In this document: positions 2,485 to 30,332 of the stretch, one piece after another
How positions within the stretch are numbered: the first letter of the stretch is position 1
Layout: every line of letters begins with the position of its first letter
Assembly: GCA_001275005.1 (NCBI GenBank)
Contig: JWZX01002728.1
Location: forward strand, 1-39,266
DNA from: Chrysochromulina tobinii
Taxonomy: Eukaryota > Haptophyta > Prymnesiales > Chrysochromulinaceae
Length of the DNA: 39,266 nucleotides
Direction of reading: 5' to 3'
Made by a program: the position numbers and the translations under genes
Notes under the pieces: model-generated
What the model saw: only the letters and a program-made list of their open reading frames with translations
The model's database searches: none
Told to the model about the DNA's origin: nothing

Positions 2485-2926
2485 TCTCCCTATTCACACC
2501 TCTACGTTTTCCCCCTTCACAAAATGAGAAAAGGAGGGCCGGGAGCGACGAGCGTGCCGAGTCAGAGGAAACATCTCGTCTTATGTTAAGCTGACAGCAC
2601 GAATCACGAAATCAACATCTCGCGCCGTCTCGCACCTCTTCTCAAATCAAGTGTCCGTCTCACACGCGCAAGTCTCCGCCGCAGCGTCCCGCGCCGTCCA
2701 CAGCGACCGTCCACAGCTGTATCTAGACGAGCAACCTTCCTGTCAAGAACTCCGTCTGGTCCGCACTCCGGCCTCGCGCCGTGTGGCGTCGATCTCGCTC
2801 TATCTCCTCATCCCCATCGAAAGTCGTCATCTCGTCGCGATCTCATCTCGTCGCGATCCGCTCGCGTTCTTCTCTTCATCCGCCCCAAATATGGCAAGCT
2901 CAGAGTCCGCCCCAAATATGGCAAGC
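2485..2926. other. Intergenic region between two minus-strand genes
   Basis: No credible gene is seen in these 442 bp. It should hold the 3' UTR of the TTC12-like gene and the promoter of the receptor-like gene. At 2881-2935 a 27-bp unit containing CGCCCCAAATATGGCAAGCT is tandemly duplicated, ending across the TTC12 stop codon. Confidence 0.6.
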
Positions 2927-5900
2927 TCAGAGTCCGCGCACCTTGCCCTTCATCGCGCGCGCGAGGATCTCGATGCCGTGGTTGTCGCGGATCGCCTCGA
3001 GCAGATGAGCATTCTTGGCGAGTCGGCCGAGGGCGATCGCGGCGTTCTTCTGCGGGCCGTCCTTGCCATTGTGCGCGATGGCAAGGAGTGGCGGCACGAT
3101 CGGGAGCACCGCGAGCACCGCGAGACACTTGTCATTCTTGGCGCACTCGGCGAGGCACAGGGCGGCGTTGCCCTGCATCCCGGTATCCGAGCGCTGCAGC
3201 AGCTTGACCAGGGCTGGCAGCCCGCCGTGGTCGCACAATGCGAGGGCGCCGCGCTCGTGCGCCGCACACGCAGTCAGGATACGCAGCGCCGAGCCCACCT
3301 GGCATGCAGGAGGCCTTCAGAGGTCAATAGAGGTCCATCAGAGGTCATCAGAGGTCATCAGGAGTCCATCAGAGGTCCATCCCAGGCTGCCCGAATCCCT
3401 CCGAGATCGCCATCTCCGAGATCGCCATCTCCGAGATCGCCATCTCCGAGATCGCCATCTCCGAGATCGCCATCTCCGAGATCGCCATCTCCGAGATCGC
3501 CATCTCCGAGTCACTCCGGGCGCGTGGGTCGGTGCGTACCATCTCTTCCGCTGCCGCCGCCGCACTCTCCGCCTGCTCCTCCTCCTCCTCCGCCGCGTCC
3601 GCCGCCCCAGGCGCAATCTCGACGATCCGAGGTGCGTTCGAGATCGCCTCGTGCGACACGCCCTCCTCGACGAGCGCCTTGACGAGTGCGACGAGCACCG
3701 GGGAGCCAAGCAGCCGCTCGACGACCGTTGGAAGGCGCGCCGCGCACCTGTGTGGGGAAGCGACGGCGCCGTGGTGAGCACATGCATGCTCGGACGGGGC
3801 TCAGCCGTTGGAAGGCGCGCCGCGCACTTGGCGAGGATTCCCGCCGCGCGCCGCGCGAGCACCGGCGGCGAGCCGCCCGCGACGGCGCCCGGCGCCGTCG
3901 TGAGCGCCGTCTCGAGCCGCGGGATGAGCGCATCGGCCATCTCCTCGGTGGCGATGAAGCCAATGGCGTCCGCACTCAGCGAGCAGTTGTGCAGGGCCGC
4001 GAGCGCGTTCGGGAGCAAGATTTGCTCCGAGTGCGCCGCGTCGTGCTGGGCACCCCCCTTGGGGAGTGAGCTCACGCATTTGAGGAGCCCGTGGAGGGCG
4101 GGGCCGTCGATGATCAGAGTGCGAAACTTGGAGTGGGCCGACAGGTTGCCCAGCGCCGTCGCCGCCTGGGAGCGCATGCAATGAGAGTGGTCATCAGTGG
4201 ACCTCGAGGGTCATTAGGGAGGGTCATCAGTGGGCCGACAGGCTGCCCAGTGCCGTCGCATGCAAGGAGAGTGGTCATCAGGCTGCCCAGTGCCGTCGCC
4301 GCCTCCTCTGGTGAAGGTGACACACAGCGGCACTCAGCGGCCATCAGAGGCACTCGGCGACTATCAGTGGCACTCAGCGGCCATCGGCGTCATGATAAGC
4401 GTCGTCAGCGTCATCATGAGCGGCCATCAGCGTCATGACGAGCGTCATCAGCGTCATGATGAGCGGCCATCAGCGTCACTCCAGATGCATCTCCGCGCAC
4501 CTGCTCAGCCAGCGAGACCGATTTCGAAGTGACGTGTGTGCCCAGCGCCGCACACAACGGCTTCGCGAACGGGAGCAACTCAAGTTTCGTCCGCGCGCTA
4601 CCGGTACACAGGGCGGCAATGAGCCCGACGGCGGCGACGACGGCCTCGGCCGCGGCCGCCTTGTCAGCTCCCGAGGCCGAGATGGCGGTGGGTGGCGCGC
4701 CGGCGCCGTTTGGTTTGGCAGCAGCCGCGGCGGCAGCGGCAGCGGCGCCGGGGGGCGTCATGATGGCGAGAAGTCTCTCATAGGTGCCTTCACCTGATGA
4801 GGGAGGCAATCAGGGGAGGTGATCAGGGGAGGTGATCAGGGGAGGTGATCAGGGGAGGTGATCAGGGGAGGTGATCAGGGGAGGTGATCAGGGGAGGTGA
4901 TCAGGGGAGGTGATCAGGGGAGGTGATCAAGAGGTTCACCTGCAGCAAGCCGTCGCGTCTCCGTCGCCACGGTCTCGTGTGAACAGTTGAATGCGAGCAG
5001 CTTCAGCTGAGGTGCGAGCGCTAAGAGAGACGCCGGTGGAGGTGCCGCCGCCGCCGCCGCTCCCGCGCCTGCCGCCGCGCCCGCCGCCGCGCCCGCCGCC
5101 GCGGGCACGCTCACCACAGCGCTCACAAGCCTGCGGAGCTCGCGAAGGATTTGGGTGGTGCCTCCACAGACATGTACCTAATTAGGGAGAGGAGGGCGCC
5201 GTGGTGAGCACTTGCATGCCGAGAGGATTTGGGTGGTGCCTCCACAGACATGTACCTCGAGCTGATTGCGCCGCTCGAGGGAGCAGACGACCAGGAGCTG
5301 TGCGAGCTGGCCACCCCAGTGATAGAGCTCCGCGCTCGCCTCGGCGCGCCCGAGACGGCGCAGGTCCTGATGAGGGACGCAATCGATGCTCATCAGTCGC
5401 AGTGGTGATCCGTGGCCATCATCAGTCGTCATCAGTCGCCATCATCAGTCGCCGTCATCAGTCGACGTCATCAGTCGTCATCGGGGAAGCACTCACCTCC
5501 CGTCATCAGCCGTCATCAGTCGTCATCAGGGGAGATCTCACCTCCCGACCCGTCGCGCTCGCCTTCGCCTTCGCCCCCACCGTCCCCTTCCCCGCCACAT
5601 TCTCCTTCCCCTCCTCCACGGCCGCCGCCGCAGCCTCGTTGAGCTTGAGCGCGCGTTGGCACGTGCGCGCGAGCAGATCGAGAATGCGCTTGATCCCGCC
5701 CGCGTGACGGATGCACACACGGGCCGCAGAGGACTCGCGTGCGAGCGTACCTGATGAGGGACGCAATCAAGGGTGCCATCAGAGCCAATCCGAGCGCAAT
5801 CATGGCGCAATCATGGCGCAATCATGGCGCAATCATGGCGCAATCATGGCGCAATCGGAGCGCAATCAGAGCGCCATCAGAGGCCATCAGGCGTACTCAG

Positions 5901-7917
5901 GGAAGCGAGCGCCTTGGCGGCCGCGGCTTCGCTCTTCGTGCGAGCGACCGCCACGTTGGCAGCGCGCACTCGAGGATCTGTAACCGTCGCTGGGCCCCCT
6001 GCCTCGCCGCCGAGCAGCCGCGCTGTCGTGGGCGCCTCGCTGCCGGCCGCGGGGCCCGCGGGCTCAGCGGTGGCGGCGGCGGCGGCGGCGGCGGCGCCAG
6101 TTGCGGATTCCGCAACCGCGAGCTCCTGGTCAGCATAGTTGATGAGCACTTCGAGGGAGGACGCACCTGATGAGGGAGGCAATCAAAGCATATGAGAGGC
6201 CATGAGAGGCCATTAGGTTGATGAGCACGTCGAGGGAGGCAATCAAGGCGATGAGAGGCCATCAGGTTGATGAGGGAGGACGTTATCGAGCCTTCACATT
6301 CGGGTATTCACATTCACAGGGTGGACGTACTCGAGTCCGCGTTCGTATGGATCTGATCGAGCAGCTCGCGCACGCGACTGCGCAGCGCTTGGTGCTCGTC
6401 CGCTGCGAGCTTCGCATCCTCGCCCTTGCTCGCGCTACCCTTGCCCTCGATGGCGGCCTCCGCCTTGGCCGCTGCCAAATCCAGCTTCAGGATCGACTGC
6501 TGCCGCTTGATCTCCGCCTTCTCCGCCTCGGGCGCCATCGCGAGCGCGGTCGCCAAGTCCTCGGCCGCCTCAACGTACCTGCCGCGCTCTCCAGTTGGGC
6601 CATTAAATCGCTCTCCAGTTGGGCCATTCAAATCGCTCTCCATGGCACTCAACTCGATCGCACTCAACTGGATGGCACTCGATGGCACTGGATGGCACTG
6701 GATGGCACTGGATGGCACTGGATGGCACTGGATGGCAGTCGATGGCAGTCGATGGCAGTCGATGGCACTCGATGGCACTCGATGGCACTCGATGGCAGTC
6801 GATGGCACTCGATGGCAGTCCATCGCACTCCATGGCACTCCGTGGCACTGCATCGCACTCCATCGCAGTTGATGGGCGGCGCGACGCACCTGCCGAGCTC
6901 CGCCTGCGCGGCAGCGCGGCGCACGTATGCCTTGAGGACGGGCGGCGGCGGCGGGCGCTGCTTGATGTCGTTATCGAGGAACGTTGCGATCTCGATCACG
7001 CGAGAGCTGATGAGGGAGGCAATCCGCTCAGCACTCAGTACGGCACATCATCTTCGCAATCAATGCCCATACACGCAATCAATGCCCATCATCGCAATCA
7101 ACGCCCTTCTAACGCGCACCAGTCGTCGAGCGCCGAGAGCAAGGTTGCGTACCACGCACTCACTCGCAATCTCACTCGCAATCTCACTCGCAATCTCACT
7201 CGCAATCTCAACGCACCAGTCGTCGAGCGCCGAAAGGAAGTTGCGCAGCTTCAGGTGCGCCGCGGCGCGGTTGGCGAGCGACGTCTTGTCGCCCTTGAAG
7301 TGCTCAACAGCGCGCGAGTAGCCGGAGAGGGCCTCCGAGTACTGCCCCGCCTTGAACGCCAGGTTCGCCGCCTCGCGCTCCTTGGCACACGCGGCGATCG
7401 CACCTTTGCGCTGCTCGGTGCGCTGCTCGATGTCCTTGGCCATCGCGTCAAAGGCGCCCTGATCCTGCACGGCGGCCGGGTTGTCGGGATCGCCGAAGAG
7501 CTCCTCGTCCGGATCTTCCTCGAACAGGTCCCATCCCTTGTAGTAGTCCGAGAACGCGCGCGACCGGTTCGACTCACGGAACTCGAGCCACTTCTCACGG
7601 CGCGCCTTGCGCAGGTAGTAGCTCTCCTTGAGCTCCTGGAGCTTCTCGCGGTTGGCCTCCTTGGCCTCGTCGAGGCGCTTACGCTCGTCCACCTTCTTCT
7701 GGATCTTGGCCTGCTCCTCTGCCCGCTTCGCCGCCCGCTTCGCCTCCTTGGCCGCCGTCTCCTTGCGGATCTTCTCCTCCTTCTCGGCCGCCACCTTGTC
7801 GAGCTGGTCGATGTCGATGCTGCCGTCGGTCAGACCCTTGATCGTCTTGTTGATGTCCTCCACCTTGGACAGGAAATCGCTGAAGTCCTCTTCGTCGTAG
7901 TCGTTGCTACCGGGCAT
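2927..7917 (-). CDS. TTC12-like TPR/armadillo protein, dynein axonemal assembly factor homologue
   Basis: Eleven exons: 7917-7217, 7006-6890, 6578-6331, 6166-5897, 5750-5542, 5366-5256, 5177-4940, 4793-4501, 4165-3828, 3747-3540, 3298-2927. They sum to 3105 nt and encode 1034 residues in one frame. The N-terminus (NDYDEEDFSDFLSKVEDI) matches the start typical of TTC12. A Lys/Glu-rich coiled coil follows, then TPRs (ANLAFKAGQYSEALSGYSRA; NRAAAHLKL) whose conserved ALDDC is made by splicing exon 1 to exon 2. Armadillo-like repeats fill the C-terminus (QAATALGNLSAHSKF, GNAALCLAECAKN, KNAAIALGRLAK). Vertebrate TTC12 (about 700 residues) works in the cytoplasm in preassembly of ciliary dynein arms, so this organism probably has motile cilia. 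The protein is longer than usual because of Ala-rich inserts in exons 4, 7 and 8. Nearly every intron carries its own tandem repeat. Confidence 0.85.
3401..3510. repeat. 15-bp minisatellite in TTC12 intron 10
   Basis: About seven head-to-tail copies of GATCGCCATCTCCGA (plus strand), almost without variation, within the intron 3539-3299. The intron starts GTACGCACC and ends GCATGCCAG. Confidence 0.9.
3748..3827 (-). mobile_element. Introner-like intron, family A (TTC12 intron 9)
   Basis: An 80-bp GT-AG intron. Its first 23 bases (3827-3805) repeat the first 23 bases of the following exon (3747-3725). Its last 42 bases (3748-3789) match the ends of the introns at 5178-5255 and 11363-11440, starting GCATGC and containing GTGCTCACCACGGCGCC. 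Removing it keeps the phase, giving ILAKCAARLPTVVERLL. Confidence 0.85.
4818..4930. repeat. 13-bp minisatellite in TTC12 intron 7
   Basis: Nearly nine copies of GGTGATCAGGGGA (plus strand) in the intron 4939-4794. In the sense orientation the unit reads TGATCACCTCCCC, a close relative of the shared intron 3' end TGATTGCCTCCCTCATCAG, which also terminates this intron. Confidence 0.9.
5178..5255 (-). mobile_element. Introner-like intron, family A (TTC12 intron 6)
   Basis: A 78-bp GT-AG intron. Its first 32 bases (5255-5224) are identical to the start of the following exon (5177-5146), or 34 bases if the flanking AG is counted. The 42-bp 3' block lies at 5178-5219 and contains GCATGCAAGTGCTCACCACG. 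Only 4 bases (5220-5223) separate the duplication from the block. Confidence 0.88.
5794..5851. repeat. 11-bp minisatellite in TTC12 intron 4
   Basis: Five perfect copies of GCGCAATCATG (plus strand) in the intron 5896-5751, followed by degraded copies. The intron ends with the shared CCTCATCAG acceptor segment. Confidence 0.88.
6671..6869. repeat. 10-bp minisatellite in TTC12 intron 2
   Basis: About 18-20 copies of GATGGCACTS (plus strand), with a few GATGGCAGTC and CATCGCACTC variants, filling most of the 311-bp intron 6889-6579. At the intron's 3' end, a unit containing CTCCAGTTGGGCCATT is present twice (6588-6631). Confidence 0.9.
7162..7209. repeat. 12-bp minisatellite in TTC12 intron 1
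   Basis: Four copies of CACTCGCAATCT (plus strand) directly beside the donor of intron 7216-7007. Beyond them, 7114-7139 repeats the last bases of exon 1 with its donor (7211-7237). Confidence 0.88.
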
Positions 7918-10756: not shown

Positions 10757-12207
10757 ATGAACGCCGGGCCTGCACGTCGAGCCCGCCGCCCCTATGCAGC
10801 CACCACGACCACCGGTGCAACGGCCTTCGAGGCTGCCGCCAACACGACGTCGAGGAGCGATGACGATGATGACGATGCGCACGAGCGTGCGCACACCCGC
10901 TCGCTCTCTCGTGCTCTCCATGCGGCGGCTACACGTGACGAGGAGCGGATTGCCGAGTTGCTCGCCACACACGCTTGCCAGCACGTCTACATCGACGTCG
11001 GGAGCAATATCGGCGTGCAGCTACGCAAGCTCTTCGAGCCCGCCAAGTACCCAAAGGCCGCATCGACGCACGGCGTGTACGAGCGGTACTTTGGTCCGGT
11101 TGGCGATGCGCGCTGCGCCGTGTGCGCGATCGGCATCGAGCCAAATCCTCACCATCGGCCGAAGTTGACGAATCTGCAGCGGCGCTACCGCGCGGCCGGT
11201 GTGGGTGCGCTTGTGCTCTATGCCGCCGCGAGCGACGTCGACAGCGTGGCGCAGCTCGCGCTTGGTCATGCCGATCGGAAGGACCGGTGGGAGGACTTGG
11301 GTGCGTCGGCGAGCGAGGCATGGGCTGGGCTACGGCGCGTGGGGAATGCCAAGTCACTCACGGTGCCCGTGCGTGCGCTCGATCTCGGCCTCCACCTTGC
11401 ATGCAAGTGCTCATCACAGCGCTGCTCCCTCTCTCCACAGGTGCCCGTGCGTGCGCTCGATCTCGGCCGGGTGATCCACACGATCCATCGGCTGCTCCGA
11501 GATCGTGAGCTCGCGCGAGATTTCGAGCTCGGCCGCGAGCAGCTGCCGCCATTCGTGCAAGTTCGCGCTGGCCTGCCGGCGCTCGCCACGGCGCCACGTG
11601 CGCGCCGCACCGGCCGCATGGTGATGAAGCTCGATGTGGAGGGCCTCGAATTCGCGATCCTTCCCAGCCTTGTCCGCTCGCAGGCGCTGTGCGTGCTCGA
11701 CGCGGTGCGGATCGAGTGGCACACGCGCTTTTGGGACCGCAGGTGGCGAATAGACCTATGATTGACCTCTGATTGACCTCTGATTGACCTCTGATTGGCC
11801 TCTGATTGGCCTCTGATTGGCCTCTGATTGACCTCTGATTGACCTCTGATTGACCTCTGATTGAACTCTAATTGACCTCTGATTGACCTCTGATTGATCT
11901 CGGATTGACCTCTGATTTACCTCTGATTGACCTCTGATTGACCTCTGATCGCTTTGGGGACCGCAGGGTGGCCATGACCGCGGCGGCGGCTCGGAACTTG
12001 AGCTTGACTGACGAGGTGGGCGCCCACGCGATGGAGAGGCTCACAGAGACGATCCGGGGCAGCGTGCGCGCGATGCTACCGGCGAGCGACTGCCGCACGG
12101 TGCTGCTCGAGGCGGACGACGAGTCGTACATGCATGACCGCCAGCCGTGGCCCGTGGCGCCCATCTGCAACCGCACCGGTGGGCGAACCGAATGGGTTGG
12201 GGGATAG
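10757..12207 (+). CDS. FkbM-like SAM-dependent methyltransferase
   Basis: Three exons (10757-11362, 11441-11742, 11967-12207) give 382 residues. HVYIDVGSNIGVQLRKLF near residue 75 is the SAM-binding motif I, and GIEPNP follows. MVMKLDVEGLEFAILPSLV and DAVRIEWHTRFW match the KxDVEGxE segment of FkbM / Methyltransf_21 proteins, which often O-methylate sugars or other small molecules; the substrate here is unknown. The N-terminus is Ala/Thr rich with an acidic DDDDDD run. Intron 1 is the family A introner. Intron 2 (11743-11966) is filled with an 11-bp repeat and carries a second copy of the exon 2 end. A TATA-like GTATAAAC lies about 20 bases before the ATG. Confidence 0.78.
11363..11440 (+). 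mobile_element. Introner-like intron, family A (methyltransferase intron 1)
   Basis: A 78-bp GT-AG intron. Bases 11363-11390 are repeated exactly at 11441-11468, the start of the next exon. The 42-bp 3' block at 11399-11440 starts GCATGCAAGTGCTCATCACA and ends CTCTCCACAG. It lies in an unrelated gene on the opposite strand from the other two copies. Its length is a multiple of three and it has no in-frame stop, so retention would add 26 residues. Confidence 0.85.
11757..11947. repeat. 11-bp minisatellite in methyltransferase intron 2
   Basis: About 17 copies of GATTGACCTCT, with GGCCTCT and GATCTCG variants. The unit resembles the TGATTGCCTC core of other introns. At both borders the sequence CGCTTTTGGGACCGCAGG or a near copy occurs (11726-11743 and 11950-11967). 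Confidence 0.92.
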
Positions 12208-15762: not shown

Positions 15763-18371
15763 TTAGTCCACGGCCCTACTCACGACCCCGAGCCCAAAGA
15801 GCGATCGCGCCGCGCACGCGCGCAGCAGGTCGTCACGTGCCGCCAGCTCGGAGAGAGCGAACCTGATGAGGGAGGCAATCGGCAGGCAATCAGAACCGAT
15901 GCAGGTCGTCACGTGGGCGGCAATCAGCAGGCAATCAGCAGGCGATGCAGAACCTGTGTCCGACTGGGAGGGCGGCAAAGGCGTTCAGAGGATCGAACAA
16001 GCCCGCCGGCGCATGCATGTACGTGAGCGTGCCCGGCCCACCCGGCATTGGCACCGACTGTGCGATTCTTCGAAGGTCCGTCGGCGGCCACTCGGGTTCG
16101 GGTTCGATGAGCTCGAGAGGGACGAGCTTGATGAGGGTGGTGGCGGCGCTGAGGGAGACGGCACGAGGGTCGCCTGATGCAATCAGGGTCACTCCAGCGA
16201 CCAGCAGTGAGATTGCAGTGAGATTGCAGTGAGATTGCAGTGAGATTGTAGTGAGATTGCTAATGCAATCAGGGGCACTCCAGTGACCAGCAGTGAGAGT
16301 CGGTGATGGCACGAGGTCATCAGTGGTCATCAGTGGTCATCAGCGCGGTCATCAGTGGTCATCAGTGGTCATCAGCGCGGTCATCAGTGGTCATCAGTGG
16401 TCATCAGCAGTGAGAGTCGGTGATGGCACGAGGGGCGCGCTCAGAGTGGTCATCAGTGGCCATCAGTGGCCATCCGTTGTCATCAGTGCTCCTCCGTTGT
16501 CATCCGTTGCCATCAGACGTCAATCAGCAGGCAATCACGTACCTCCGCCGCTCCTCGCGACCAGCTGCGCAAAAGCCGCCTCGCTCTGGGAGAAGGCGTG
16601 CCTCTGCTTGTGCCGCTGCTGCCGCATACGGCGATGCAGCTCCGCCTTCGCCACCCCCTGCTGTGAAGACACTTGAGCGCGAATGCGCGCCCAAAGCATT
16701 TCAAATCGCTGACGCCAGACGCCCAAAGCGGCGCCGTGGTGAGCGCCAAATTTGGTCATGGAGCCGTCGTGGTGAGCACCCATTGTCGTGGTCGATGGTA
16801 TTGTCGTGGCGGCATGGGCGTTGGTATTGGCGTCGGCGGCGGTCGATATTCCGATCGCCGCCAACGACGGCGCGGGCGACACGGACGGCGCGGGCGACAC
16901 GGGCGGCGCGGGTGGCATCACAGCCAGCGCTGGCGGCGCGGGCGGCGCGGGCAGCACAGACGGCATCGGCATCGGGCCGAAGGGCAGCGCCTGACGAAAC
17001 TGGCGCTCGCCAAAGCATGCGGCCCGCACCTGATGAGGGGTGCAATCAGAGGTCATCAGCGAGGCCATCAGAGAGGCCATCAGAGCGCTTGCCAATGCAT
17101 GCGGCCCCGCTCCGCTCAACACAACGTGGCATGATCCGCACCGCATTGAGTGCTGTGGTACTCAGCGATAGGTCGGCTGTCGGAATGGCAATGGTCAGAT
17201 GCAGCGAAGCGCCCGACACAGCGCCCGGCACGGCGCTCGAAACGTTGCCGCTCGCTCCGCCACCGATCGCATCGCCACTGATTGCCTCTGATTGCCCTGT
17301 GCTGATTGCTACTGATTGCCCTGTGCTGATTGCCTCTGATTGCCCTGTGCTGATTGCCTCTGATTGCCCTGTGCTGATTGCTACTGATTGCCCTGTGCTG
17401 ATTGCCTCTGATTGCCCTGTGCTGATTGCCTCTGATTGCCCTGTGCTGATTGCCTCTGATTGCCCTGTGCTGATTGCCGTTGAGTGCCCAGTGTGAGCGA
17501 CGTGGACGACCCCGCGTGGAATGTAGAGCACATCCCCCGGCCGCAGCAGCACGTCCAGCTCTGGAGGCCCGAGGCTCTCCAGCGTCAGCCGCGAGGTCCC
17601 GTCCGGTAGCCGACGGCCATCCTTGCCCGCTTGCTCGTCGGCAAAGGGGCGGCGCTGCGAGAGCGGATGGACGGTCGGCCACACTAGCCAGTGCTTCGTA
17701 CCGTGCAGCTGGACGATGAAGACGTCGTGGTCGTCGCTGTGGGGCGGCACCGTCTGGCTGCCGGGCGGCGTCAGGTAAACGTTCCCGTACGCGTAGCGGA
17801 AGTCCCGAGCCAAGCGCGCGCAGAGCTCGTGCACCCTCGGCCACAGCTTGTCGACGCGGTTGATGATGAGAGAGGCACCGCTGGCATAGGCAAGGTGGGG
17901 CGTGGCATACTCGGTCACGTGCTTCAGGTCTTGGAAGATGAGCAGCTCGGCCGAAGTTCCCGGCAGCGACGCGCGCACGAGCAACTCGTCCATCTCGTCC
18001 AGCGTGAGCGGCGCGTCATCCAGAGGGCGGGCCCTGGCCGTGCGCTGGAGCAGCACCGACTGCCGGTCAAAGTGCTCCGACAGGAAGCGCTCGGGCGTCA
18101 GTGCAGCGCCGAGCAGCTCAGCGAGCGCCTCGAACCTCGATGCGAGCGGCCGTCCCGCGACGTCGGGGACCGCGCCATTGCTTTCTCTCGATTCCATGCT
18201 GCAGGTGGCGGCGAGCGTCACGCCCGTCGGGGCGCTGAGCTGCACGCGCGCCGAGCAGCGCGATGCGGCCTGTACTTCCCAAGCCGCGGGCGAGAACACG
18301 AGCGTCGGGAGAACAAAGTTGACGAGGCGTGAACGAGACGCAACCGGACTTCCAGGAAGCACGGCAGACAT
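15763..18371 (-). CDS. JmjC ribosomal oxygenase (RIOX / NO66 / MINA type)
   Basis: Four exons (18371-17142, 17029-16543, 16173-15954, 15862-15763) give 678 residues. JmjC core: GNVYLTPPGSQTVPPHSDDHDVF supplies the HxD iron ligands, VQLHGTKHWLVWPTV follows, then VLYIPRGVVHVAH with the distal His and SLHLTIAIPT. After it come LRQALP-like FRQALPFGPM and a C-terminal winged-helix region ending FALSELAARDDLLRACAARSLFGLGVV, as in the ribosomal-protein histidyl hydroxylases. These 2OG/Fe(II) enzymes act in the nucleolus, nucleus or organelles. Between GVVH and SLH an open 24-bp repeat encodes AISTGQSE about seven times; it may be translated or spliced. The start is uncertain (18371 chosen; 18461 and 18197 possible). 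It shares a promoter with the small gene at 18485. Confidence 0.83.
15863..17141 (-). other. JmjC introns sharing the CATCAG acceptor segment
   Basis: Introns 17141-17030, 16542-16174 and 15953-15863. The first ends GATTGCACCCCTCATCAG, the second GATTGCATCAG and the third GATTGCCTCCCTCATCAG (all in sense orientation). The second is filled with ATGACCACTG-type and GATTGCAGTGA-type repeats, including a duplicated segment with GAGAGTCGGTGATGGCACGA at about 16294 and 16411. Confidence 0.75.
17273..17490. repeat. 24-bp minisatellite inside the JmjC gene
   Basis: About eight copies of a 24-bp unit with core TGATTGCCCTGTGC (plus strand). In the sense frame each unit is exactly eight codons (AISTGQSE) with no stop. 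Its motif GGCAATCAG is the reverse complement of the TGATTGCC core of the gene's other introns. Confidence 0.9.
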
Positions 18372-28779: not shown

Positions 28780-30332
28780 ATGAGCTCTGCCGCGGCGCCG
28801 AGCACGGCGGCGAAGGACAGTGGGCCGCCTGACGAGTACATCTCGATCGCGCAAATCCGATACACCGCCGCGCACGGCAAGCCGGCGGAGGCCGCGAAGG
28901 CCAAGGAGCAGCTGCTGGCGCTGATCAAGAAGCGCGAGATGGGCCCGCTGTACTCGGCTGTGTGCGAGCAGCTGGGCACGCTGCCGGACGCCGCACTCGC
29001 CGCCTCATTCGCCGCCGCGAACGCAGCCGAGCTCGCGCGCCTCGACGAGGCCATCGTGCGCTGCGACAAGGACGAGGGCGAGTCCGAGGTCCGCGAGGCC
29101 TACCTGGCCAAGTCAGAGTACCTGGTGCGCATCGGCGAGAACGAGAAGGCGCACGCGGCCATCGAGGCGACGTACACCAAGACGGTCGCCATCGGGCTGC
29201 GGCTCGACCTGCTGCTCTGCAAGCTGCGCGTCGCGTTCTTCTTTGACAACCTGAAGCTCGTCAAGGCGACTGTCGACCGGGCCAAGGCGTTGCTCGAGAC
29301 GGGCGGCGACTGGGAGCGGCGCAACCGGCTCAAGGTGTACGAGGCCGTCTTCCTCTTGTCCATCCGCGACCTCAAGAAGAGCTCCGCGCTCCTGCTCGAC
29401 TCGATCGCCACGTTCACGGCGACGGAGCTGCTGCCGTACAACACCTTCGTCTTGTACGCGGTCGCGACGTCGCTGGTGGCGCTGCCGCGATCGGAGCTGA
29501 GGCCCAAGATCATTGACTCGCCCGAGGTGCTGCAGGTCATCGGCGAGATCCCGCACATCGCCGGCCTCGTCAACGGCCTCTACGGCTGCTCGTACCGCAT
29601 GCTCTTCGCGTCGCTCGTCGAGGTCATCGATATGCTCCTGGCGGACCGGTAGCGCTGCACTCCTCGCTCTCCCCCGCTCTCCCCCGCTCTCCCCGCTCCC
29701 GCGCTTTCGGGAGCCCCGCGCCGACAACCAAATCCGCGCTTGCGAGCAGACTCACTTGTAGCGTGGCCGATACCGGCGCCAGAGCACACGCGCGCCCTCG
29801 GAGGCGGCATCGGCTCGGGCTGGCTTCGCCAACTGCGCGAGGCCTCCGCCGCCTCTGACGCTACAAAAGTCGCCCGTAGCGTGCCCTTGCTCCTCTGCGT
29901 CGTGCCACTGACTGCGTCGCTCCTCCGACAGGTACTTTGCGGCGCACGCGCGCTACTACTGGCGCGAGGTACGCGTGCTCGCCCAGAAGTGTCCCTACTG
30001 CCTCCCTACTTGCCTCCCTAATTGCCTCCCGAATTGCCTCTCCCTATTGCATGCAGGTACGCGTGCTTGCGTACACGCAGTTCCTCGAGAGCTACCGCGC
30101 AGTCTCGCTGCAGTCCATGGCCGCCTCTTTCGGCGTCTCTTCTGCCTTTCTTGACGCTGAGCTCGCCGCGTTCATCTCGGGCGGACGCCTCTCGTGCTCC
30201 ATCGATAAGGTCGCCGGCATCGTCTCGTCCACGCGGCCAGACACGAAGAACGCGCAGTACCAGGCCACCATCAAGCAGGGCGATCTCCTCCTCAATCGTG
30301 TGCAGCGACTCAGTCGCGTCGTCAACATGTGA
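28780..30332 (+). CDS. PSMD6: 26S proteasome non-ATPase regulatory subunit 6 (Rpn7)
   Basis: Three exons (28780-29648, a 37-nt microexon 29932-29968, and 30057-30332) give 393 residues, against 389 in human. It begins [15 protein letters not shown]; the N-terminal helical repeats include [27 protein letters not shown]. The PCI domain is strongly conserved: [66 protein letters not shown], and the end [23 protein letters not shown]. It is a lid subunit of the 19S regulatory particle. Intron 2 (29969-30056) starts with 14 bases nearly repeated at the next exon start (GTACGCGTGCTCGC versus GTACGCGTGCTTGC) and is made of TTGCCTCCCTAA units. Confidence 0.95.

Follow-up and report, generated by a model that had tools for sequence, protein, structure and literature searches.

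A genome-wide family of predicted introners with long exon-derived repeats in two mirror arrangements in Chrysochromulina tobinii

The window, that is, the whole stretch of 39,266 nucleotides analysed here (contig C1571 of assembly G000, 63.7% GC), carries three short candidate introns on its two strands, one of them in an FkbM-methyltransferase-like gene whose Pfam match to the FkbM methyltransferases lies slightly below the cut-off. All three are predicted to belong to an arrangement that we call class A, in which a repeat of exon sequence gives the GT (or GC) donor, the element gives the AG, and the exonic copy of the repeat lies 3′ of that AG. Their parts are as follows.

5178..5255, minus strand: putative introner-created intron of class A, 78 bp, GT..TTAG; it holds a stop in the frame that excision leaves open
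5224..5255, minus strand: intronic copy of a 32-bp exact repeat, giving the GT donor
5146..5177, minus strand: exonic copy of the 32-bp exact repeat
5178..5219, minus strand: 42-bp family block with core GTGCTCACCACGGCGCC, running from GCATGC to TTAG, by sequence match and genome-wide counts
3748..3827, minus strand: putative class A introner-created intron, 80 bp; excision alone preserves the frame, and it is missing from relatives P0038-P0043
3805..3827, minus strand: intronic copy of a 23-bp exact repeat
3725..3747, minus strand: exonic copy of the 23-bp exact repeat
3748..3789, minus strand: 42-bp family block, by sequence match
11363..11440, plus strand: putative class A introner-created intron, 78 bp, in the FkbM-methyltransferase-like gene; missing from relatives P0002 and P0003
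11363..11390, plus strand: intronic copy of a 28-bp exact repeat
11441..11468, plus strand: exonic copy of the 28-bp exact repeat
11399..11440, plus strand: 42-bp family block with variant core GTGCTCATCACAGCGCT, by sequence match

A preliminary description of this DNA had given the three introns as 78, 80 and 78 bp long, each beginning with an exact copy (32, 23 and 28 bp) of the next exon and each ending in a related 42-bp block, and our re-examination bears out the coordinates, the lengths, the repeats and the blocks (5178-5219, 3748-3789 and 11399-11440). In all three cases the repeat is an exact copy of the sequence directly 3′ of the acceptor; that of 5178-5255 measures 34 bp if the preceding AG is included, and that of 11363-11440 measures 29 bp with the preceding G. 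Within the block 5178..5219, GTGCTCAC is a plausible branch-point region, going by the branch-point consensus. A distance of 1.4 kb separates the two minus-strand introns, which may be parts of a single gene. The reading frame is preserved only if the 80 nt of 3748-3827 are excised; the 78 nt of 11363-11440 are frame-neutral and stop-free, so that this segment could also be read through.

The preliminary description had also proposed a genome-wide search with the block, and this search, carried out on the whole assembly (53.15 Mb in 2,253 contigs), returned 2,312 sites for the 24-mer GCATGCAAGTGCTCACCACGGCGC at up to 3 mismatches, as compared with 0 for the reversed control. With up to 2 mismatches allowed, the 17-mer core matched 3,374 sites and its reversed counterpart 66; a 25-mer variant containing GCATGCAT matched 637 at up to 1 mismatch (control 0), and a longer 5′ form, TGACCTGCCTTGCATGC, matched 348 at up to 2 mismatches (control 1). 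The 42-bp block thus represents a genome-wide family of introners, the segments that bear it being predicted as introns. As a side observation on the same assembly, contig C2186 (locus L039) contains a 488-aa rbcL reading frame of form I, presumably the red-type, haptophyte form; together with a homologue from Prymnesium polylepis, it points to a haptophyte of the Prymnesiales as the likely source.

We have also checked whether the direct repeats between intron start and next exon recur beyond the window, using loci that were either first-listed matches or picked by hand from listings of at most 100 places each, and hence a sample that is not random. From 223 distinct copies with flanks, 132 single copies with exactly one core per 245-base frame were kept and 91, mostly tandem arrays, were dropped; the control consisted of downstream flanks swapped between copies (n=396). 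This restriction was made because 115 of 223 swapped sequences had passed the repeat test owing to the presence of tandem arrays, and the test was therefore rerun on the 132 of 223 single-core copies. A direct repeat score of at least 12 was then reached by 105/132 copies and by 3/396 controls. The corresponding figures were 118/132 and 30/396 at a score of at least 9, 72/132 and 0/396 at 16 or more, and 49/132 and 0/396 at 20 or more; an earlier count with another repeat definition had found scores of at least 9 at 94/136 core sites and 11/405 controls. The swapped-flank controls rule out chance as the source of the repeats. Across the 132 single copies the block is found at unrelated sites with unrelated repeats and flanks, and in one count a GT stood at the start of the repeat in 47 of 65 copies. 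Beyond the window the repeats are often imperfect and often arranged the other way round. Tandem arrays with an intron-sized unit of about 62-82 bp, each unit comprising repeat plus element, were seen in contigs C1589, C2180, C2193, C846 and C930 of the same assembly and also at loci L066 and L026. For the reversed repeat at locus L136, an explanation as a chance core-like stretch of exon was abandoned; it resembles a tandem unit and was excluded from the count.

This reversed arrangement, class B, is the mirror image of class A: the element gives the donor, and the acceptor comes from an upstream-exon copy that ends at the AG. The 105 repeat-bearing copies comprise 50 of class A, 18 of class B, 9 with the junction within the repeat and 28 unclassified, the last being copies without a GT/GC..AG pair at the repeat, several of them with a repeat broken up by substitutions or indels. 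Under a looser rule that includes tandem units, 94 long-form copies fell into 21 class A, 44 class B and 29 undecided. Repeats in class A span 11-41 bp (median 24) in introns with a median length of 78, and those in class B span 12-35 bp (median 16.5) in introns with a median of 77. In 68 of the 77 classified copies one edge of the repeat falls no more than 3 nt from the splice junction, a figure that leans high since the GT/GC..AG pair closest to the repeat edge was the one picked in the class assignment. The earlier proposal that the target supplies the donor and the element the acceptor thus holds for the window and for class A; in class B it is the target that supplies the acceptor.

The reading frame supports removal of the family segments by splicing, as predicted from sequence. 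With the coding phase called from stop codons and third-position GC rather than from annotated genes, the phases upstream and downstream agree after excision in 56 of the 77 classified copies, and among those with a clear phase the frame is kept upon excision in 50 of 61. Of the 41 clear-phase copies with a length not divisible by 3, 34 are in frame if excised and 2 if retained.

Comparison with related genes, also proposed in the preliminary description, revealed that the intron is missing in close relatives at both 11363 and 3748. At 11363, the search yielded 35 homologues, of which 15 were aligned: the intron is present and read through in P0001 (11 member sequences), and missing in P0002 (39 members, 98% identical), in P0003 (1 member) and in the 12 other aligned homologues. 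P0001-P0003 all extend into the next intron, and are thus of unspliced origin. For the 3748 site (17 homologues found, 15 aligned), P0038-P0043 are continuous with no insert (6 clusters, 30 members, 91-94% identical), as are the more distant P0045, P0049 and P0052. The insert is present in P0036, P0037, P0044, P0046, P0047 and P0048; P0044 begins within it and P0046-P0048 enter it in a different frame. A class B gene at locus L116, with two sites and 5 homologues, behaves similarly, since P0053 (32 members, 93%) runs uninterrupted across both sites, P0054 (13 members) begins within the first intron and has no second, P0056 (19 members) begins within the second, P0055 is uninterrupted at both, and P0057 is uninterrupted at the first and ends before the second. 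The DNA itself shows an empty site where the end of contig L170, aligned to contig C608, is short of 75 bp: in C608 a 50-bp element is flanked by two 25-bp copies (one mismatch), of which L170 has a single one, and another copy of the same block family nearby is present in both. At the 11363, 3748 and L170/C608 sites, the intron-free relatives carry the repeated stretch once. Introns have therefore been gained recently at five sites, namely 11363, 3748, the two in L116 and the one in L170/C608.

The contig L170 itself comes from a viral collection, its last bases, about 4180-4554, matching this alga and containing one empty introner site. In a search of the genome with its bases 2500-4554, matches were confined, repeats aside, to the last ~375, and it is probably a chimaeric assembly. 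Spread by viruses was considered and set aside, L170 being one block-bearing contig and read as a chimaera; two further viral scans came back empty.

A fixed second end is lacking in the element, whose inner junction, where measurable and on small numbers, lies at short microhomology. Among 34 non-tandem class B copies, the break falls within the known core in 12 and beyond it in 21, and 1 is coreless. At 9 of the 12 measurable junctions, target and continuing element agree over 3 nt or as far as can be measured, compared with 11.8% in simulated random joins; 6 of the 12 reach 3 nt, and 3 of the 12 hit a measurable end of just 1-2 nt. Class A provides 39 copies whose inner piece measures 3-29 nt; 6 of them fit the long-form consensus and 33 do not, and 5 of these 6 measurable copies share at least 3 nt with the target, against 4.9% in simulated random joins. 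The microhomology is thus based on 12/34 class B and 6/39 class A copies. Some of the non-fitting pieces may have another source. At L098 (C1018), which has two blocks, the 27 nt 5′ of one block are identical to the 27 nt 5′ of the L099 block (C677), where they constitute the exon-derived repeat, and the outer flanks of L098 and L099 differ; L085 and L028 likewise have 10 nt in common 5′ of the block, a likeness that may be due to chance. New copies can therefore carry relics of an earlier site, and such relics may be the source of the 33 non-fitting class A inner pieces.

Repeat length and retained element length compensate for each other, being anticorrelated in class A (r=-0.75) and in class B (r=-0.62). 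Intron length accordingly has an SD of 6.7 in class A as compared with 12.1 when permuted (0 of 20,000 permutations as low), of 7.2 compared with 10.6 in class B (108 of 20,000 as low), and of 7.1 compared with 11.4 in the 34-copy class B set (0 of 20,000 as low). The simplest reading is that selection acts on how far apart the splice signals lie. There appear to be longer introns that share the 3′ half, L037 being an example, and the upper limit of length is thus outside this reading. A strict length-preserving swap of introner ends, suggested by the compensation, was rejected, since the introns differ in length by tens of bases and the inner junctions shift with the microhomology.

A second intron 3′ end, TGATTGCCTCCCTCATCAGGT, occurs at 2,914 genomic sites at up to 2 mismatches, as against a control of 0. 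In this second, largely different family a class-A repeat score of at least 12 was obtained for 29/57 copies and 2/171 controls, tandem arrays included. Short words such as TGATTGCC are common to both families, which may be mosaics of one stock. Examples of the second family in the window, and candidate introns there with other bodies, are listed below.

4793-4813, 5750-5770, 6166-6186 and 7009-7026, minus strand: second-family 3′ ends, TGATTGCCTCCCTCATCAG, recognised by sequence
11743-11966, plus strand: candidate intron with another body, an 11-bp exact exon-derived repeat and TGATTGACCTC tandem repeats, from the repeat search
16316-16432, plus strand: candidate intron with another body and a 29-bp exact exon-derived repeat, from the repeat search
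29969-30056, plus strand: candidate intron with another body and a 13-bp exact exon-derived repeat, from the repeat search

Presumed introns made of short tandem repeats were also noted at 3390-3520, 4800-4930, 6650-6870 and 11760-11950, the tandem words in presumed introns of the window being GATCGCCATCTCC, GATCAGGGGAGGT, GATGGCACT and TGATTGACCTC.

Starting from features that are observed directly, namely the family, its repeats, both classes, the keeping of the frame and the presence or absence among relatives, and from a microhomology seen on small numbers, we infer a copying step, its template and its enzymes, together with the actual splicing of the transcripts. The reading towards which we lean, by a modest measure, is microhomology-guided copying of an introner into a gene, with one exact splice-end junction and a duplication of exon. 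Part of an existing introner would be copied into a break or stalled fork in the gene, the template being introner DNA or intron RNA. One junction would be exact at a splice end, joining the introner AG to a target GT in class A or a target AG to the introner GT in class B, and the other would lie inside the introner at short microhomology. Rejoining of the target upstream of the departure point would duplicate 11-41 bp of exon, and this duplicated piece would become half of the new intron and provide the missing splice site. The exact junction could derive from the ends of intron RNA, from shared CAG|GT words or from selection for an unchanged coding sequence. Since the compensation between repeat and element length is not predicted by copying alone, selection on splice-signal spacing must be added. 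We would suggest, more tentatively, a broader version in which intron multiplication is a host-level process independent of the family, any intron RNA or DNA possibly serving as a patch in microhomology-guided repair; the exact splice end of the patch would join the gene, the duplicated exon would complete it, and several intron families would spread together in two mirror forms with no transposase. This strikes us as possible, though short of probable.

Each of fixed-end transposition, simple retroposition and plain reverse splicing is at odds with one of the features observed; microhomology-guided copying would explain most of them. Insertion with target-site duplication, as originally proposed, stands in so far as these are introners with a duplicated target; in the sense of a transposase it fits poorly, given the mirror class and the lack of a fixed second end. 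Mobilization of a DNA transposon or MITE-type introner by a transposase would explain the multiple copies, the target duplication and the one co-opted splice site, as in several families described in the main text of PMC9860276, but we consider it very improbable: the repeats vary from 11 to 41 bp in place of a fixed short duplication, one end is unfixed, and in 5 copies examined for terminal inverted repeats of at least 8 nt, none were found at the element ends, and one 8-nt inverted pair sat in the two exon-derived repeats. Such inverted repeats are also missing from some published introner families. Plain reverse splicing would insert a whole intron with no target duplication, and long repeats are present in 105/132 single copies. 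In retroposition, a nick in the target would prime reverse transcription of excised intron RNA, and the products would have duplications of variable length, with the 3′ end exact and the 5′ end ragged. Class A anatomy fits this exactly, the variable duplications are those of a SINE-like retroelement, and the genome has reverse transcriptase domains (26 RVT_1 matches, 22 above cut-off); an exact 3′ end with a ragged 5′ end is, however, not seen in all copies, class B having an exact 5′ and a ragged 3′ end, a pattern that priming at the RNA 3′ end would not give, and we regard retroposition as improbable.

A rather less improbable, though still unlikely, explanation is that staggered double-strand breaks were filled in and a loose introner fragment ligated between the ends, only splice-competent products surviving. 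Variable exon repeats and both mirror classes are predicted by it, end joining fits the microhomology, and new Daphnia introns have repeats of a like kind, of 4-12 bp, according to the article text of PMC4202315. Such breaks should often leave the junction within the repeat, as is seen in only 9 of the 77 classified copies, and the 68 of 77 in which an edge of the repeat comes to within 3 nt of that junction speak against it too, although the class assignment favours edges. The present introns share with the Daphnia type a repeat of adjacent exon at the opposite intron end, but their repeats exceed the Daphnia length. The idea that nothing was inserted, the segments being minisatellite-like repeats in exons or old introns decorated by tandem duplication, draws on the tandem arrays of intron-sized units in this genome and has hardly any probability in our view, since the same block stands at unrelated sites with unrelated repeats, the frame is kept upon excision and lost upon retention, and relatives lack the entire unit. 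The in-exon minisatellite is ruled out by the frame test.

The origin of new spliceosomal introns is a long-standing question, and the gains described here are numerous, recent and still missing in close relatives. Each copy is a record of its own insertion, with an empty site, a repeat length and an inner junction. The two mirror classes, together with the class-A pattern in the second family, discriminate between transposase, retroposition and repair models better than short fixed duplications do, and the half-exon, half-element structure means that a piece of exon becomes intron sequence in one step.

For comparison with known systems we rely on article texts without supplements. In the open-licence literature so delimited, we found no account of introner duplications as long, variable and two-way as these. 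The main text of the C. tobin genome paper (PMC4580454) gives on average one intron per gene and uses a word beginning with ‘intron’ once. The preliminary description had called the duplications unusually long, and rightly so, as they measure 11-41 bp here against 3-9 bp in the previously characterised introner families of the main text of PMC9860276. Like the Daphnia introns, whose exon repeats are read as staggered breaks in the text of PMC4202315, the present ones are recent, polymorphic gains; the Daphnia introns are mostly of unknown source according to that text, whereas here the repeats are longer and belong to one multi-copy family. The Amoebophrya repeated introns, as described in the text of PMC7789003, also have direct repeats at their borders, but these are direct repeats of 3-5 nt and inverted repeats of 8-20 nt with non-canonical splice sites, in contrast to the long direct repeats, the GT that opens the repeat in 47 of 65 copies by one count, and the absence of inverted repeats in 5 tested copies here. 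Fungal introner-like elements, attributed to reverse splicing in the main text of PMC9860276, resemble the present family in that similar introns spread between genes without terminal inverted repeats; they are described there as having no target duplications, which are the main feature here. A 2025 survey of 213 introns across intron classes (PMC11782384) takes border repeats as insertion traces, as we do, with repeats of 4-30 bp (mean 11.4) near the borders; unlike that survey, the present work concerns a single family, with two mirror classes and with sites that stand empty in relatives. Closest in kind to class B are the introners that the main text of PMC9860276 reports from a Chrysochromulina metagenome genome, with their own 5′ splice site, a co-opted 3′ site, 4-bp duplications and no terminal inverted repeats; the present family may already be listed in the supplement of that paper, the comparison resting on its main text. 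Taken together, the present family resembles the introners surveyed in the main text of Gozashti et al. 2022 (PMC9860276) in that short introns of similar sequence occur by the thousand at unrelated sites and in carrying one splice site while the other comes from the duplicated target, and differs from them in having two mirror classes within one family, its lack of a fixed second end and the microhomology at its inner junction.
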